Below are positions 1,389 to 10,550 of a DNA stretch of 64,000 bases, in pieces. This DNA comes from Anaerolineae bacterium (lineage in GTDB: Bacteria > Chloroflexota > Anaerolineae > Aggregatilineales > J027): positions 219,107 through 283,106 of the forward strand of contig JAIOHL010000124.1 of NCBI GenBank assembly GCA_019913005.1, written 5' to 3'. Position numbers and translations under genes: made by a program. The notes under the pieces are model-generated. The model searched no databases. It was given only the letters and a program-made list of their open reading frames with translations, and was not told where the DNA came from. Within the stretch, counting starts at the first letter, position 1; the number at the start of each line of letters is the position of its first letter.

Positions 1389-2075
1389 TTAGCGGTTAGC
1401 AAAACGATAACCCACCCCACGTGAGGTAAGAATGTAAATTGGGTTCATCGCATCTGGCTCGATTTTTTGGCGGAGATAATGAATATACAATTTCAGACTA
1501 TCCGTAGCGTCGGCATATTCTGGCCCCCACGCCTCCTTAACCAGATCGGTACGTGAAATGACCCGGCCTGCGTTGCGTACCAAAACTCCCAAAAGTTTGA
1601 ATTCTTTGGGAGTCAAGTGTACCAATTTCTCGTTAACCTTGACCTCGCGGTTAAGGAAATTGATGCGAAAATTGCCCCCATCAAATACCAGTTCTTCAGA
1701 AACCGTCGGCGTTGGTGTACGGCGTAGATGCGCTTTCACTCTCGCAACTAATTCATCATTGTCATAGGGTTTGACAATGTAATCGTCGGCTCCCATTTCC
1801 AAACCTTTGACCACATCTTTGATTTCGCTGCGTGCCGTGAGGAAAATGATCGGCACGTCGGAAAGCTCCCGTAGCCGCCGACAAACCTCCCACCCGTCCA
1901 TATTGGGCATCATAATGTCTAATAAAACAAGATCAGGATGATTGCGATAGGCTTTGCGTAAGCCATCTTCTGCCCGATACGCCTTAATGACTTCATACCC
2001 CCGGCGCTCCAACAAAATACTAATAAGTTGGACGGTGGTTTCTTCGTCGTCTATAACCAGAATTTTTTCCGACAT
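1389..2075 (-). CDS. OmpR/PhoB-family response regulator
   Basis: A two-component response regulator of 228 residues. The receiver domain covers about residues 1-120, with the acidic pocket (IDDEE), the phosphoacceptor Asp in LVLLDIMMP, the Thr of FLTAR and the Lys of VKPYD. The C-terminal 100 residues are an OmpR-type winged helix (LTPKEFKLLGVLVRNAGRVIS, then GVGYRF). It has an AGGGGTT ribosome site. No histidine kinase is next to it. Instead, the gene upstream on the same strand encodes a membrane protein with GAF and HTH-like regions but no kinase core, so the kinase partner is probably elsewhere. Confidence 0.95.
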   Translation of the reverse strand: MSEKILVIDDEETTVQLISILLERRGYEVIKAYRAEDGLRKAYRNHPDLVLLDIMMPNMDGWEVCRRLRELSDVPIIFLTARSEIKDVVKGLEMGADDYIVKPYDNDELVARVKAHLRRTPTPTVSEELVFDGGNFRINFLNREVKVNEKLVHLTPKEFKLLGVLVRNAGRVISRTDLVKEAWGPEYADATDSLKLYIHYLRQKIEPDAMNPIYILTSRGVGYRFANR

Positions 2076-2187
2076 TCCATAACCCCTTATAGGCAGGCAA
2101 ATATTGGGTCACTAGAAAGCACATACAAACTTTTTCCTCACTCTACCATACTATTAACAATCAACGCAAGTACAAGTTAGAAAATCG

Positions 2188-4200
2188 TTAGGCGTCGGCA
2201 GGAACGAGTGTCGAATCGTTAGAATCAGCTTGCGGTTGGGCTTGGTTTGTTTCCAAAAGACGTTGTTCTGTTTCCGCGATGATACGGGCCACTTCTTCAA
2301 TTGCCACTCGTTGCTTACGATAAAAGTCGGCATTGCTCATCGCCAAGCGTAGCGCCACATCGCGCACACGTCGCCCTTGAATAAAACGCATTTCGAGGAT
2401 GTTGTACAAAATCCACTCGGCTTTGGTTAGATTTTGCTGGCCCTCTGGCCGCAGTCGTTCAATCGCATCCACCAATACCCGCCGTAGGGCATGAACGCGG
2501 TTGCCATCTGTTTTGGCGACATGGTCAACAATCCCAAGCTCCAATAGTTTGCTTTCGGCCAGTTTTGGCCCACCCCAATAATCACGCAGAGCATCTCGCA
2601 CCAAGTCAATAAACTCAGGGCTGTCGGTGAGCCTGTTTCTCTCAACCTCAATCTTTTCTGGCTTGATAGAAACTTGCCCAAAGGTGCTGACGTTGGTTCT
2701 TTGAAGGGTCGCGCTGGTAGCCGGAATAAGTTCGCCTAGCGTCGAGAAAATACGCCGTTGCAGGCGTTCATCCATGAGCACCTGTATCGAACGCTGCACA
2801 AGCGCATTCAACGTATCCTCTTCCTCGGCATTTAGATTCGGTTCGGCGGTGCGTCCCCAAATACCCATAATTCCAATGAGGGTATTTTCTTCGCCCTCCT
2901 TGCTGTAGAGCGGAACTAGCCAAAATGATCGCCAGCCAAAGTATCGGCCTGAGCGCTTAAGTCCGTCCGGCAATGGGTCATGATCGTTGCCATTTGAAAA
3001 TCCGTTGGTCAAAAATTCTTCGGTGGCGGCACGATCTTCTTCCGGAATGCGGCCTACTACCTGTTCCAAATGGGCACCCCATTCCCCAATAGATGCTACA
3101 AATGCCGTTGGGACTCGGAGTTGGTCACACACCGCCGCAAGGATCGCTTCATGCAGTTGGGCAGCATCAGCCCGTGTCAACAATCGCTCACTAATGGTTT
3201 GCAATCGTCTTGCCTGCTCTTGGTCATGGGTATAGACCAACCAGCCTTCCAAACGTGGCATAATCACCGTGAACATCCATTGCATACACAATACCACCGT
3301 GACCGCCGCAAATGAGATAAACTGCTGGCCCTCTATCCCCAAAACACTGGTGGCCTCCGCGAATATTTGGATGGCGGCCAGTACCACTGTACCTGTAACA
3401 GGTCCACGCAGCATAAATTCAAGGAGTTCGGCCTTAACCACCCGGTCTGGCTGATGGGTTCCAAAAAACGAGAGCGGATAGGCCATAAACGCCAGCATCG
3501 CCAACACGGCCACATTTGCGATGTTAAAGACAACCCATATCCAGACATTGGAAAGTGTGCCCACATCATCAAAAAATATAGACAGCAGCAGAGAGTAGGG
3601 ATAAAGTCCCCATGCCGGAGTGGTAAATGCGGCCAACAAATAGGTCATCCGGCGGCGGGTATGCGTCGTTAGGCAGCGGCGGCGTGCCCGAACAACATTA
3701 AACACCGCAAAACCAACTGCCACCAGAAAATACGCCGTATAGACAAGGAAGAAACTACCCGGCTTCATATGCCATGTAGGTTTTTCAACTAATGATTTAA
3801 CGATGGCATCGGTAAATAAAGATGCCAAAGCAAAAACCGTTCCGACGGCATAGAGTAGGCGAGAGGCTCGCCGACGCCGTCCGCGTGAAACTCGTCCCGT
3901 AGTAGCCAACAGTGCATCGGAGAGATGGAACATAGCGGCTGGAATCATCGCCAAACCGAGCCACTGAAATCGAAACCAGTTTTCAAAGGCCTGTGGTTTA
4001 CTCGGTTCAAGCGCGATAAAGACGTCTCCAATATAAGAAATGGTGACACACCCCAGCAAAATACTGGAGGCGCGGGTCACCCGATCTCTGACATGGTGCG
4101 TAATGTTATATAACAGCATCGAGGCGGTGATGATGACAATAGCTGTGGAAAGAATTTCATTGGTAAATTGGAAAAAAGTAACGCCGTCTAGCCTATCCAT
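2188..4200 (-). CDS. membrane 7TM-GAF protein with HTH-like C-terminus
   Basis: A predicted sensor of about 670 residues. The first 330 or so contain seven or eight hydrophobic segments, resembling the 7TM input region found ahead of some histidine kinases. A GAF-like domain follows at about residues 345-480 (it begins near LQTISERLLTRADAAQLHEAI). The last 150 residues are soluble and helical, with a stretch resembling a sigma-region-4 or LuxR-like helix-turn-helix (RRVRDVALRLAMSNADFYRKQ). I find no H-box, N-box or G-box of a kinase and no GGDEF or phosphatase motif. It may be a membrane-bound one-component regulator or an anchor for the adjacent response regulator. The TTG at 4209 is an alternative start, but GAGG lies just before the ATG at 4200. 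Confidence 0.8.
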   Translation of the reverse strand: MDRLDGVTFFQFTNEILSTAIVIITASMLLYNITHHVRDRVTRASSILLGCVTISYIGDVFIALEPSKPQAFENWFRFQWLGLAMIPAAMFHLSDALLATTGRVSRGRRRRASRLLYAVGTVFALASLFTDAIVKSLVEKPTWHMKPGSFFLVYTAYFLVAVGFAVFNVVRARRRCLTTHTRRRMTYLLAAFTTPAWGLYPYSLLLSIFFDDVGTLSNVWIWVVFNIANVAVLAMLAFMAYPLSFFGTHQPDRVVKAELLEFMLRGPVTGTVVLAAIQIFAEATSVLGIEGQQFISFAAVTVVLCMQWMFTVIMPRLEGWLVYTHDQEQARRLQTISERLLTRADAAQLHEAILAAVCDQLRVPTAFVASIGEWGAHLEQVVGRIPEEDRAATEEFLTNGFSNGNDHDPLPDGLKRSGRYFGWRSFWLVPLYSKEGEENTLIGIMGIWGRTAEPNLNAEEEDTLNALVQRSIQVLMDERLQRRIFSTLGELIPATSATLQRTNVSTFGQVSIKPEKIEVERNRLTDSPEFIDLVRDALRDYWGGPKLAESKLLELGIVDHVAKTDGNRVHALRRVLVDAIERLRPEGQQNLTKAEWILYNILEMRFIQGRRVRDVALRLAMSNADFYRKQRVAIEEVARIIAETEQRLLETNQAQPQADSNDSTLVPADA

Positions 4201-4282
4201 AATCCTCAACTGACTGTTGGTTGATCTTTTTTTGGTCTGTTTATTGTACCCACTGAATCGTCAGATGCCTGACCATTCGATA

Positions 4283-6244: not shown

Positions 6245-7102
6245 ATGGAGAAAACGGGTCGTCATCCCAAAAGGGTACGATTTTGGAGTGTAGCCTTAGT
6301 GCTAAGTCTCATCGGTTTGTTGATCGGGGCGTGTGATGAGGTGGATAAGCTGACAGGGGATGAAGATGTGGTGGTGCCCACTCTTGCCACCCTGACCGAT
6401 TTGCAAACAGCCGTCTATTTAACGCAGGTCGCCCCACCAGCGGGTTTTGCAACGGTGTCCTTCCCCGGCATTGACGACAATTTACGCACGGCAGTTTATT
6501 CGCACGTCGTCATCACGGTGAGCTTTGATGGTGCATATAGCGAACCCACTCCCGACGATCCTCCCAATGTCCAAAGCACGATGCGGATCGAAATTTGGAA
6601 CGATGACTTTAATGTGGCGCGGCAGGTGCGGATTGAATTTTTGGGCAATGTCTTCTCAGGGGATGCCAGCAATTTAGACGTGGTGCGCCTGAGCAACAAT
6701 TTCTACATGCTTAATCCCAATGGCGTATGTATCACCGACCCTGCTAAAATCCGCGATATTGCCACCTTGCAGGCAGGTCAATTATTGGGTGGGGTCAATT
6801 TGGCCCAGCCAACGGGCCGTCCCAATGAGCTAATTAATGGCTACAAATCGTGGCAATATGGCTTTACCCCCTCCCAGATGAATTACCCCTCTGTTCAAAC
6901 GACCAACGCGATTGATATTTTGACGGGTGAACTGTGGGTTTCGCCTGAGTACAATGTTGTTACCCGCTACAAAGTCGAAATGAATGTCTATCAGGCCACC
7001 TTGCTGTTCGGCAATCGTCCCGTCACTGGGCGCATTGTTTTTCAATATGATATAGATCAACTGGGTATCGCGCCAAACATTTCTGTACCAAATGGCTGTT
7101 AG
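6245..7102 (+). CDS. predicted lipoprotein of unknown function
   Basis: A 285-residue protein with a basic N-terminus, a hydrophobic segment and a lipobox (LIGAC, Cys about residue 30), so it is probably lipid-anchored outside the membrane. The rest is beta-rich and resembles LppX/LprG-like or LolA-like lipid carriers in general pattern only, so no family is assigned. It sits 11 bp after the methyltransferase with an AGGGAG site and probably belongs to the same transcript. It ends just before the dnaN promoter. Confidence 0.75.
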   Translation: MEKTGRHPKRVRFWSVALVLSLIGLLIGACDEVDKLTGDEDVVVPTLATLTDLQTAVYLTQVAPPAGFATVSFPGIDDNLRTAVYSHVVITVSFDGAYSEPTPDDPPNVQSTMRIEIWNDDFNVARQVRIEFLGNVFSGDASNLDVVRLSNNFYMLNPNGVCITDPAKIRDIATLQAGQLLGGVNLAQPTGRPNELINGYKSWQYGFTPSQMNYPSVQTTNAIDILTGELWVSPEYNVVTRYKVEMNVYQATLLFGNRPVTGRIVFQYDIDQLGIAPNISVPNGC

Positions 7103-7121
7103 AACAACAGTGCGGAAACCC

Positions 7122-7149
7122 TTGCGTTTACGGGGTTTAAGGATATAAT
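7122..7149 (+). promoter_or_regulatory. putative dnaN promoter
   Basis: TTGCGT and TATAAT separated by 16 bp, lying about 68 bp before the dnaN start codon. An AAACCC/GGGTTT inverted repeat overlaps the -35 region and could serve as the end of the upstream transcript. Confidence 0.6.
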
Positions 7150-7216
7150 TTTGGGGTTACACGATTCACAAAAATTTGAAAATTTACGGCGCGAAGCCCT
7201 GCGGAGAACTCTCAAC

Positions 7217-8362
7217 ATGCGTGTTTCTGTTCTGCAAGAAAATCTGCAAAAAGGTCTGAGTATTGTCAACCGGGCGATTAGTTCGCGCCCAACCCTGCCC
7301 ATCTTGGCGAATGTGTTGCTTTCCACCGAAGACTCCCGCCTAAAACTTTCTGCCACCAATCTTGAACTTGGCATTTCGGTCTGGATTGGGGCAAAGGTCG
7401 AACAAGATGGCGCTGTCACCGTGCCTGCCCGTACTCTATACGAACTCGTCAGCAATCTCTCGCCGGAACGGGTGGATATGGAATTGGAAGTCCGTACCCA
7501 GACGATCAATTTACGCTGCGGGGGCACAACCACCAATATTAAGGGTATTGACGCTTCTGAATTTCCGCTGATCCCCGAAGCCAGCGCCGACGGGGTGGCC
7601 GTACCTGCCCATGAATTCCGTGAGATGATTGAGCAGGTCGCCTTCGCCGCCGCCAAAGATGACAACCGCCCTGTGCTGACCGGCATTCTGGCCCGTTTTG
7701 AAAATAACATAATTACACTAGCTTCAGCAGATGGCTATCGTCTGTCGGTACGCAAAGCCTATATTGAAAATCCGGTGAAGCAGGTAGTCAATGTGATTAT
7801 TCCTGCAAAGGCCCTTCAAGAAGTGGCACGTATCATCTCGGATGAAGATGAACTGATCTATATCTCTATGCCCGAAGGCCGCAGCCAAGTCATGTTCCAT
7901 CTGGCGGAAGTGGATGTAGTGTCCAGCCTGATTGAAGGCAAATTTCCCGATTATGAAGGGATTATCCCACGCAAAAAGAGTACCCTGACCACTGTCTATC
8001 GGGACGAATTGCTGCTGGCCTGCAAGCGTTCGGAAGTGTTTGCCCGCGACAATGCCTTTACCACCAAGATTTCGATTATCCCCTCCGATGATGGCGTTGG
8101 CCCCGGCGAAGTGCGCGTGCGTGGTCAATCCAACGAAAAAGGCGACAACGAAAGTTTGGTGACGGCCTCAGTGGATGGCACAAGCGTGGACATCTCATTC
8201 AACATCCGCTATCTGATTGATGTCCTGAATGTGATTAAAGAAGATCAGGTCGTCATAGAAACCAACACCTCCACCGACCCCGGTGTGGTGCGTCCAATGA
8301 AAACCGACGACGATGGTCTTGACCATTTTGTGCATGTGATTATGCCTATGCGTGGCGGCTGA
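7217..8362 (+). CDS. dnaN: DNA polymerase III sliding clamp, beta subunit
   Basis: The ring-shaped processivity clamp, about 381 residues, with three successive clamp domains. The N-terminus (MRVSVLQENLQKGLSIVNRAISSR and then LPILANVL) and the ends of domains (FPLIPEA, ASADGYRLSVRKA, FPDYEGIIP) match the family. The C-terminus is HVIMPMRGG, close to the usual VMPMRL ending. The track starts at an upstream TTG; the ATG at 7217 with GGAG in front matches the family N-terminus. No dnaA, gyrB or origin-like cluster accompanies it, so this copy is not at a classical dnaA-dnaN locus. Confidence 0.97.
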   Translation: MRVSVLQENLQKGLSIVNRAISSRPTLPILANVLLSTEDSRLKLSATNLELGISVWIGAKVEQDGAVTVPARTLYELVSNLSPERVDMELEVRTQTINLRCGGTTTNIKGIDASEFPLIPEASADGVAVPAHEFREMIEQVAFAAAKDDNRPVLTGILARFENNIITLASADGYRLSVRKAYIENPVKQVVNVIIPAKALQEVARIISDEDELIYISMPEGRSQVMFHLAEVDVVSSLIEGKFPDYEGIIPRKKSTLTTVYRDELLLACKRSEVFARDNAFTTKISIIPSDDGVGPGEVRVRGQSNEKGDNESLVTASVDGTSVDISFNIRYLIDVLNVIKEDQVVIETNTSTDPGVVRPMKTDDDGLDHFVHVIMPMRGG

Positions 8363-8523: not shown

Positions 8524-9861
8524 ATGCCGATGTTTGAAAACCTGAGTGACCGCCTGCAAGATGTCTTTGGACAGCTTGGGCGCAAAGGCACGCTCACCGA
8601 GGCCGATGTAGATACGGCCCTGCGTGAAGTGCGTATCGCGCTGCTTGAAGCCGATGTCAACCTCAAGGTGACAAAAGATTTTATCAAGCGGGTGCGGGAA
8701 CGGTCTATCGGGGCCGAAGTGCAAAAAAGCCTTCGTCCGGCTCAACAGGTCATCAAAATCGTCAATGAGGAATTGGTTGCCACACTTGGCGAAGCAGGCA
8801 GGCTTAATCTCAGCGGTCCCTCTCCGCGCGTGATTATGTTAGTGGGCTTGCAGGGGTCGGGTAAAACTACCACTGCGGCAAAACTGGCCCTGCATCTGCG
8901 CCGCGATAATCGTAAACCATGGCTGGTCGCCGCTGACACCTACCGTCCAGCAGCGATTGACCAGTTGGTGACGCTCGCCAAACAAATTGACATGCCGTAC
9001 TATGCGGAAACTATCCAATCCTCCCCGCCCGACATCTGTGCGCGAGGGGTTGAAGCCGCCAAGAATGCCGGAGCGACGGTTGTGATTTTGGACACAGCGG
9101 GTCGTTTGCAGATTGATGACCATCTGATGGCCGAATTGGAGGCAATCAAAGCACGCACCAATCCAGCCGAAATCTTGCTGGTGGCCGATGCGATGACGGG
9201 GCAGGAAGCGGTGCGAATCGCCGAAGGCTTTAATCAACGAGTCGGCCTGACCGGGTTGGTTCTGACTAAAGTGGATGGTGATGCGCGTGGTGGTGCTGCC
9301 ATTTCCATGCGGGAAGTAACCGGGGTACCCATTAAGTTCTTGGCGACAGGCGAAAAGTTAGACGGATTTGAGGTATTTTATCCTGACCGTCTGGCCTCAC
9401 GCATTCTCGGTATGGGTGACATGCTCTCCCTCATCGAGCAAGCCGAACAGCTTTACGATGAAGAAGAAGCCTTGCGCCTGCAAAAGAAGATGATGAAAAA
9501 TGAGTTCAACCTTGAAGATTTCTTGGGGCAACTCCAAAAAATCCGGCGTATGGGGTCATTCTCCAAAATCCTAGAGATGATTCCCGGCGTTGGCAATCTA
9601 CGTAAGCAGTTGAACATCAATGACCAAGACGCTCAACAGCGGATGAAACGGGTCGAGGCGATTATCCTCTCTATGACTCCGCAAGAGCGTCGAAATCCCA
9701 AATTGTTAAATGCCAGCCGCAAAAAGCGGATTGCCGCAGGCAGTGGAACAACGGTGCAGGACATTAATCAACTCCTGAGCCAGTTCCGTGATATGCAAAA
9801 AATGATGAAGGAGATTGGCGGCGCGGGGGGACGACCTCCACGAATGCCGGGTCTCCGTTAA
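8524..9861 (+). CDS. ffh: signal recognition particle GTPase Ffh (SRP54)
   Basis: The protein subunit of the signal recognition particle, which delivers ribosomes making membrane proteins to FtsY. It has 445 residues. An N-domain helical bundle is followed by the G domain with P-loop GLQGSGKTTTAAKL, DTAGR, TKVDGDARGG and the GEKLDGFE closing motif. The C-terminal M domain is Met-rich and includes the RNA-binding stretch SMTPQERRNP and SRKKRIAAGSG. A second ATG three codons in (MFENL) is an equally good start. It opens an operon with rpsP, khpA and rimM. No SRP RNA gene was found in the window. Confidence 0.97.
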   Translation: MPMFENLSDRLQDVFGQLGRKGTLTEADVDTALREVRIALLEADVNLKVTKDFIKRVRERSIGAEVQKSLRPAQQVIKIVNEELVATLGEAGRLNLSGPSPRVIMLVGLQGSGKTTTAAKLALHLRRDNRKPWLVAADTYRPAAIDQLVTLAKQIDMPYYAETIQSSPPDICARGVEAAKNAGATVVILDTAGRLQIDDHLMAELEAIKARTNPAEILLVADAMTGQEAVRIAEGFNQRVGLTGLVLTKVDGDARGGAAISMREVTGVPIKFLATGEKLDGFEVFYPDRLASRILGMGDMLSLIEQAEQLYDEEEALRLQKKMMKNEFNLEDFLGQLQKIRRMGSFSKILEMIPGVGNLRKQLNINDQDAQQRMKRVEAIILSMTPQERRNPKLLNASRKKRIAAGSGTTVQDINQLLSQFRDMQKMMKEIGGAGGRPPRMPGLR

Positions 9862-9903
9862 ACCCGAAAATGAATACATGCTGTAAGGAGCAATGAAACA
9901 ATC

Positions 9904-10278
9904 ATGGTACGCATTCGTTTGCGTCGTGTAGGCCAAAAAGGTCAAGCTGTCTATCGTATTGTCGCCGCCGATCAACGTGCCAAACGGGATGGGCGCTATA
10001 TCGAAATTCTGGGTCACTATAACCCCCGCACTCAGCCCGAAACCGTTGAATTTGCGGAAGAGCGTATGCTGTATTGGTTAAGTAATGGTGCTCAACCCTC
10101 CGATTCCATGAATATGATCCTGCGCAAAACAGGCACGCTGGAACGTTATGAACGTCTGCAAAAGGGCGAAAGCATGGAAGCGTTGGTTGCCGAGGCCGCT
10201 GCCAAGAAAGAAGCCGCTGGCCCAATCAATCCCAAGACCCGCTTTATGGCCCCTCTCAAGAAGGAATCGGCCAACTAA
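9904..10278 (+). CDS. rpsP: 30S ribosomal protein bS16
   Basis: A small-subunit assembly protein. The core (MVRIRLRRVGQKGQAVYRIV to about residue 85) is typical. The chain continues to 124 residues with an Ala/Lys/Glu-rich tail, longer than the usual 80-90. The AAGGAG site and ATG are clear. It stands 42 bp after ffh and 44 bp before khpA, the familiar ffh-rpsP-khpA-rimM order; trmD and rplS do not follow here. Confidence 0.96.
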   Translation: MVRIRLRRVGQKGQAVYRIVAADQRAKRDGRYIEILGHYNPRTQPETVEFAEERMLYWLSNGAQPSDSMNMILRKTGTLERYERLQKGESMEALVAEAAAKKEAAGPINPKTRFMAPLKKESAN

Positions 10279-10322
10279 GGGTCTGAATTTTAACCGCTGT
10301 CTTCCTAACATGGAGGGCCAAA

Positions 10323-10550
10323 ATGAAAGAACTTGTTGAATTCGTTGCCAAATCGCTGGTGGATGATCCCTCTCAAGTGGAGGTTGGCGTCGAGCCAGAT
10401 GGGAATTTGGTTATTCTCAAGCTGCATGTCGCCCCGGAGGATGCAGGCCGGGTGATTGGAAAAGATGGTCGTGTTGCCAGCGCCGTGCGGGTTTTGCTGC
10501 GGGCAATGGCAGCACGCGAAGGCAAACGGGTGACGTTGAAGATTGACTAA
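10323..10550 (+). CDS. khpA: KH-domain RNA-binding protein KhpA
   Basis: A 75-residue single-KH protein, the normal length for the family. The GxxG loop is in VIGKDGRVASAVRVLLRA. KhpA binds RNA, often as a partner of KhpB/Jag, and is linked to cell division and envelope control in several bacteria. The start has GGAGG in front. It overlaps the start of rimM by eight bases. Confidence 0.95.
   Translation: MKELVEFVAKSLVDDPSQVEVGVEPDGNLVILKLHVAPEDAGRVIGKDGRVASAVRVLLRAMAAREGKRVTLKID

Follow-up and report, generated by a model that had tools for sequence, protein, structure and literature searches.

The window analysed here is a stretch of 64,000 nucleotides from an Anaerolineae genome (GenBank assembly GCA_019913005.1, contig JAIOHL010000124.1, positions 219,107 to 283,106), which belongs to a genome bin of 7.6 Mb. 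Near its start, at positions 2188–4209, lies a gene whose predicted product, referred to below as the sensor protein, joins a membrane region and a GAF-like domain to a C-terminal domain (CTD) with a putative helix-turn-helix (HTH). The gene, its subdivisions, the adjoining intergenic DNA and the neighboring response regulator gene are all on the minus strand. The open reading frame, proposed in an earlier note on this DNA, is real, being conserved at full length in relatives. The protein has 673 residues if translated from a TTG at position 4209, or 670 from an ATG three codons further in at position 4200, which is where the earlier note had placed the gene end; the pair of start codons and the full length are kept in four related Anaerolineae/Chloroflexi metagenome-assembled genomes at 87–98% identity. 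The preceding gene encodes ribosomal protein L25 (4364–5032), with a terminator-like hairpin (4318–4295) on the L25 side of the sensor gene. Downstream are a PhoB/OmpR-type response regulator gene (1389–2075), which carries Response_reg and Trans_reg_C domains and had been recognized as such, and a gene for a LacI-type regulator.

The N-terminal membrane region covers residues 15–317 (positions 3259–4167). Within it, the Pfam model HisKA_7TM (PF16927) matches residues 23–217 with an E value of 8.7e-7 and a score of 29.4 bits against a curated cut-off of 28.6, and the same model scores 36–51 bits (up to E 2.9e-13) in three Chloroflexales-like orthologues. Hydropathy averaged over 50 orthologues, combined with the positive-inside rule, places nine membrane segments near residues 27, 56, 90, 125, 160, 200, 233, 278 and 305, of which the third is weak; two of the nine lie beyond the HisKA_7TM match. 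The mean number of lysines and arginines, from the N-terminus to loop 8, is 0.2, 2.4, 1.9, 4.0, 1.2, 5.8, 0.3, 3.2 and 0.7, so that the predicted inside loops (2.4, 4.0, 5.8 and 3.2) alternate with outside loops of 0.2–1.9, as fits an N-out, C-in topology. Because the positive-inside rule gives this orientation, the GAF domain and the C-terminus are predicted to be cytoplasmic. The GAF-like domain itself (residues 346–480, positions 2770–3174) is weakly matched in the window protein (GAF_2, residues 406–471, E 0.016) and more clearly in three orthologues (E 4.9e-6, 1.4e-5 and 5e-4). It is followed by a variable linker (residues 481–530, positions 2620–2769). Thus, the sensor-like architecture of seven transmembrane helices and a GAF domain described in the earlier note is retained as to domain types, although the number of membrane segments is nine rather than seven.

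The CTD occupies residues 531–650 (positions 2260–2619). When the genome was searched with the sensor protein, four other proteins were found that share only residues ~530–655, and their alignment with the orthologues defines a domain of ~120 residues that is apparently all-helical. Its first half follows the pattern V-R-x-A-L...W/Y-x-x-P...L...S/H-P-L, with a middle stretch thereafter, and its second half the pattern EW-x-LYNIL-x-x-x-F/Y-I-x-G...V-x-x-x-L-x-x-S-x-x-x-Y-R-x-x-x-x-A-I. No Pfam or NCBIfam model covers the CTD, and no Pfam DNA-binding model exceeds its cut-off in the window protein. When 28 diverse CTDs were scanned one by one against both collections, weak matches were obtained to Sigma70_r4_2 (14 CTDs), Sigma70_r4 (13) and DUF1492 (23) in Pfam and to sigma70-ECF (19, best E 1.6e-6) and phage_arpU (12) in NCBIfam, as would be expected of remote homologues; the same scan revealed no known counterpart for the N-terminal half with its WGGP motif. 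In a profile–profile comparison, HHalign of 74 CTDs against region 4 of 12 sigma factors from the same genome returned a probability of 96% (E 4.9e-9, score 49.9, 69 columns), whereas column-shuffled control profiles reached at most 1.7%. Weak profile matches of this half to PDB entries comprised a TetR-like protein (Lin0861) and two sigma factors. Judged by these profiles, the second half of the CTD is an HTH homologous to sigma-70 region 4 (residues 598–641, positions 2287–2418), with a putative recognition helix at residues 624–641, and the HTH-like stretch noted earlier is more than a chance resemblance. The protein is not a sigma factor, since sigma region 2 has no match in it.

Conservation within the protein is also highest in the HTH. 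Compared with the window protein, orthologues average 66% identity in the HTH half, 50% in the first half of the CTD, 35% in the membrane region, 28% in the GAF domain and 18% in the linker. S625 is invariant, and Y630, R631, K632, Q633 and A636, likewise in the putative recognition helix, are invariant in 50 sequences. Between the window and locus L009 the CTD is 97.5% identical even though third codon positions match at only 51–57%, and the identity therefore reflects selection on the protein rather than recent descent. These comparisons demonstrate strong purifying selection on the predicted HTH.

The CTD is not confined to the sensor protein. It is fused, across an intervening region, to receiver domains in four proteins (L002, L003, L120 and L125) and to STAND-type ATPases with TPR repeats in five (L127, L129, L131, L135 and L138). 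Further fusions join it to nSTAND2 (L133), to a weakly matched GAF domain (L137), to an uncharacterised membrane region recognized by eye (L004) and to an RbsC-type ABC permease with a GAF domain (L005). Because the CTD is also found with receivers, STAND ATPases, GAF domains and an ABC permease, it appears to behave as a mobile output module; this is our main functional argument, and one that we infer from the fusions. In bacterial signalling, DNA-binding domains are typically combined in this way, one output domain being shared among many input modules.

In the receiver-containing response regulators (L002, positions 1366–2598; L003, positions 1492–2679; L120; L125) the CTD is N-terminal and the receiver C-terminal, and the middle part resembles a degenerate HATPase domain by eye, without a Pfam match. 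The STAND ATPase–TPR proteins, of 760–940 residues, likewise carry the CTD at the N-terminus and seem to be regulators of the MalT/AfsR type whose DNA-binding domain is uncatalogued. In L005 (positions 1486–3306, on contig C260 of the same genome) the RbsC-type sugar permease, the GAF domain and the sigma-4-like CTD form one open reading frame adjoining a gene for a sugar-binding-protein-like product, and frames of about equal size are present elsewhere in the genus; this transporter may itself act as a transcription regulator. Some genomes of families f91 and f98 have at least 10 CTD matches. Outside Chloroflexota, the search covered plasmids, phages and viral contigs and found no CTD in them, and a literature search, with most subscription journals outside its reach, found no paper describing the sensor protein or the CTD.

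Full-length orthologues of the sensor protein are present in 190 of 199 sampled genomes of the class, including 128 of 131 good ones, with one copy per genome and few exceptions. They also occur in the class of genome G313, in all listed genomes of families f66, f76, f102 and f105, which we take to be Chloroflexales-like; 37 genomes of that class without a match were unlisted. In G313 itself, a Chloroflexus-like genome, the orthologue lies at C1:3763689–3765623. In the other families listed for that class no orthologue was seen, except for one weaker match in two pieces in f134. The 15 Chloroflexales-like sequences form one clade with a support of 1.0 under midpoint rooting, as vertical descent predicts. 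In the classes of G212 (Dehalococcoides-like) and G533 (Ktedonobacter-like), the CTD was matched only sporadically and in frames of a different length. Since almost all members of a large Chloroflexota group have retained one copy, the protein is probably a core gene switch that the cell operates directly from its membrane.

The domain order, the predicted topology, the lack of a kinase domain, the homology of the HTH, the reuse of the CTD as an output domain and the near-universal conservation can all be read from sequence, and they support the proposal in the earlier note of a membrane-embedded one-component transcription factor. We consider it likely that the sensor protein is such a regulator and that its HTH binds DNA without the protein leaving the membrane. 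A signal would reach the nine-helix membrane domain, the cytoplasmic GAF domain or both; the variable linker would relay it, causing the CTD to change conformation or dimerize; and the sigma-4-like HTH would then bind promoter DNA near the membrane. In this scheme we infer that the membrane part senses the signal, that the HTH binds DNA rather than protein and that the protein is active when intact, with no need for release by proteolysis. Some results weigh against it. AlphaFold models had a mean predicted local distance difference test score of only 50 for the CTD and 34 for the full-length protein and are not reliable, a low confidence that we attribute to an input alignment of near-identical sequences (≥87% identity); Foldseek with the weak CTD model returned nothing significant and was not used as evidence. 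A motif search of upstream regions found no operator motif, only a TATAAT-like -10 element. Moreover, sigma region 4 also binds proteins, namely anti-sigma factors and the beta flap of RNA polymerase, and HTH homology alone is therefore no proof of DNA binding.

The last point leads to an alternative in which the sigma-4-like domain is a protein-interaction module, docking from the membrane on RNA polymerase or an anti-sigma-like partner and not on DNA. The protein contacts of the homologous region and the WGGP half without a counterpart would both suit such a role. However, conservation peaks in the putative recognition helix, which has invariant basic residues, and the CTD serves as output module in receiver and STAND proteins, whose output is usually a DNA-binding domain, so we regard docking as unlikely. 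A variant of DNA binding, in which the active form is a fragment freed by proteolysis and linker 481–530 is the cleavage region, could draw on the poor conservation of that linker and on FtsH, which is the upstream neighbor of the sensor gene in three loci. It seems to us improbable, because a conserved cleavage site is absent and the FtsH neighborhood is limited to few genomes. The possibility that the C-terminus is a decayed DHp/CA domain, and the protein thus a degenerate histidine kinase, can be given hardly any credence. The membrane domain is indeed of a type found in histidine kinases, and many orthologues contain an H-x4-P motif (HYWGGP) that superficially resembles an H-box. Nevertheless, 9 of 50 orthologues have D or Q in place of the histidine, the window protein has D, and on this ground the motif was rejected as a relic H-box. 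HHalign of the CTDs against the 12 HisKA domains of the same genome gave a probability of 0.23%, by which the kinase reading itself was rejected. In agreement with the earlier view of a membrane sensor without kinase motifs, no HisKA or HATPase match was found in the sensor protein even at E≤1, and only the 50-residue variable linker separates the GAF domain from the CTD, leaving no room for a kinase domain. On the choice posed earlier between a DHp/CA domain and an HTH, the sequence profiles thus favor the HTH, while the structure models, with their low confidence, do not contribute.

It was also proposed that the membrane protein works with the adjacent PhoB-type regulator as a non-kinase partner. 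In the genomes examined from the genus, and in one genome of a sister genus (L159), both genes lie side by side in the same orientation, and the window and L009 share 100% identity in the regulator protein with third codon positions matched at only 61%. The expected co-occurrence does not extend across the class, however. Close orthologues of the regulator (E≤1e-75) were found in 7 of 100 class genomes, confined to the order of the window and two other families, against the 190 of 199 that have the sensor protein. Among the 29 class loci with flanks, the regulator adjoins the sensor gene in this genus only; elsewhere in the family and order, except in the sister-genus genome, the genes are found on separate contigs or at a distance of 62 kb. 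The regulator also appears to have a conserved upstream region of its own. The 112 bp between the two genes (2076–2187) are 93% identical between the window and L009, and because they are far more conserved than the third codon positions of the sensor gene (51%), the alignment suggests that they are the regulator's own promoter/operator. The adjacency is local, the regulator is not an obligate partner, and partnership as a general feature was rejected on co-occurrence; we consider this reading very improbable. Independently of this question, the complete protein identity of the regulator and the 93% identity upstream of it (1389–2187) indicate extreme constraint on the regulator and its promoter region.

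In the class as a whole, the sensor gene is commonly preceded by a gene for a GNAT acetyltransferase and followed by genes for an S1-domain protein and FtsK/SpoIIIE; each of these neighbors is present in 10–12 of 20 loci. Upstream spacing is often 0–45 bp, which suggests an operon. In Herpetosiphon-like genomes (L140, positions 6514–8217; L157, positions 8753–10456; L148, positions 8544–10196) the sensor gene is overlapped, or followed at a short distance, by the next gene, whose product in L140 is a GGDEF protein with two receivers and an H-box-like N-terminus, a possible further partner in that lineage.

Class-wide conservation, with the predicted DNA-binding half conserved best, points to a core physiological role. 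More speculatively, the protein could be a class-wide core regulator of Anaerolineae and Chloroflexales. Its membrane-tethered sigma-4-like domain would recognize -35-like elements, or recruit RNA polymerase at the membrane, and would link the state of the envelope or of division to transcription, also to that of its own operon (GNAT, S1-domain protein, FtsK); the CTD would then be the founder of a new Chloroflexota output-domain family that extends to response regulators, STAND ATPases and a sugar-type ABC permease. We put this forward only tentatively, as a picture that is rather doubtful in its entirety. The hosts are ecologically abundant and genetically little studied bacteria, and naming the CTD would reveal a set of regulators in Chloroflexota. 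Domain-based surveys such as that of transmembrane transcription regulators (TTRs) would miss it because it has no Pfam or NCBIfam model.

Several known systems resemble parts of the sensor protein. Histidine kinases with an N-terminal HisKA_7TM domain share its family of membrane sensor domain, but the window protein lacks a DHp or ATPase domain and has two additional transmembrane helices. Sigma-70 region 4 and the ArpU/DUF1492 phage regulators have a homologous HTH; the CTD differs from them in its extra N-terminal WGGP half and its fusion to sensors. ChiS is a membrane-embedded sensor-kinase-like regulator that, unlike the window protein, keeps kinase-type domains. The likeness lies in a DNA-binding domain that has a cryptic HTH variant and occurs in variable domain arrangements in the ChiS family (PMC8092284). 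Rsp of Neisseria gonorrhoeae (cited in PMC10269533) offers a precedent for a DNA-binding domain attached to a sensor-kinase receptor that lacks its kinase, but it combines a PilS-type receptor with a PilR-type DNA-binding domain, and by description both differ from those of the window protein. The sensor protein would work like TTRs such as ToxR, TcpP, CadC and BcrR (PMC10269533), which also unite transmembrane segments and a DNA-binding domain in one protein and need no phosphorelay. It has at least one transmembrane region and, in the same protein, a predicted DNA-binding domain on the cytoplasmic side according to the positive-inside rule; by domain content, it most likely belongs to the TTRs. 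Its supposed rarity holds only in part, since TTRs are widespread: a survey by Demey et al. (2023), which relied on Pfam DNA-binding models, counted 50,302, of which 56% are single-pass and 27% have more than two transmembrane regions (PMC10269533). Hybrid TTRs, according to the same survey, are not conserved at the genus, class or phylum level (PMC10269533), and it is here that the class-wide conservation of the window protein is unusual. Known TTRs are mostly single-pass and lineage-specific, whereas this protein, with an unusual sensor of nine transmembrane helices, a cytoplasmic GAF domain and a C-terminal sigma-4-like HTH, has been retained, with rare exceptions as a single copy, in almost the whole class and in the Chloroflexales-like families. 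What is new is the output domain, which is uncatalogued and used in several architectures, and the near-universal conservation of the sensor protein.
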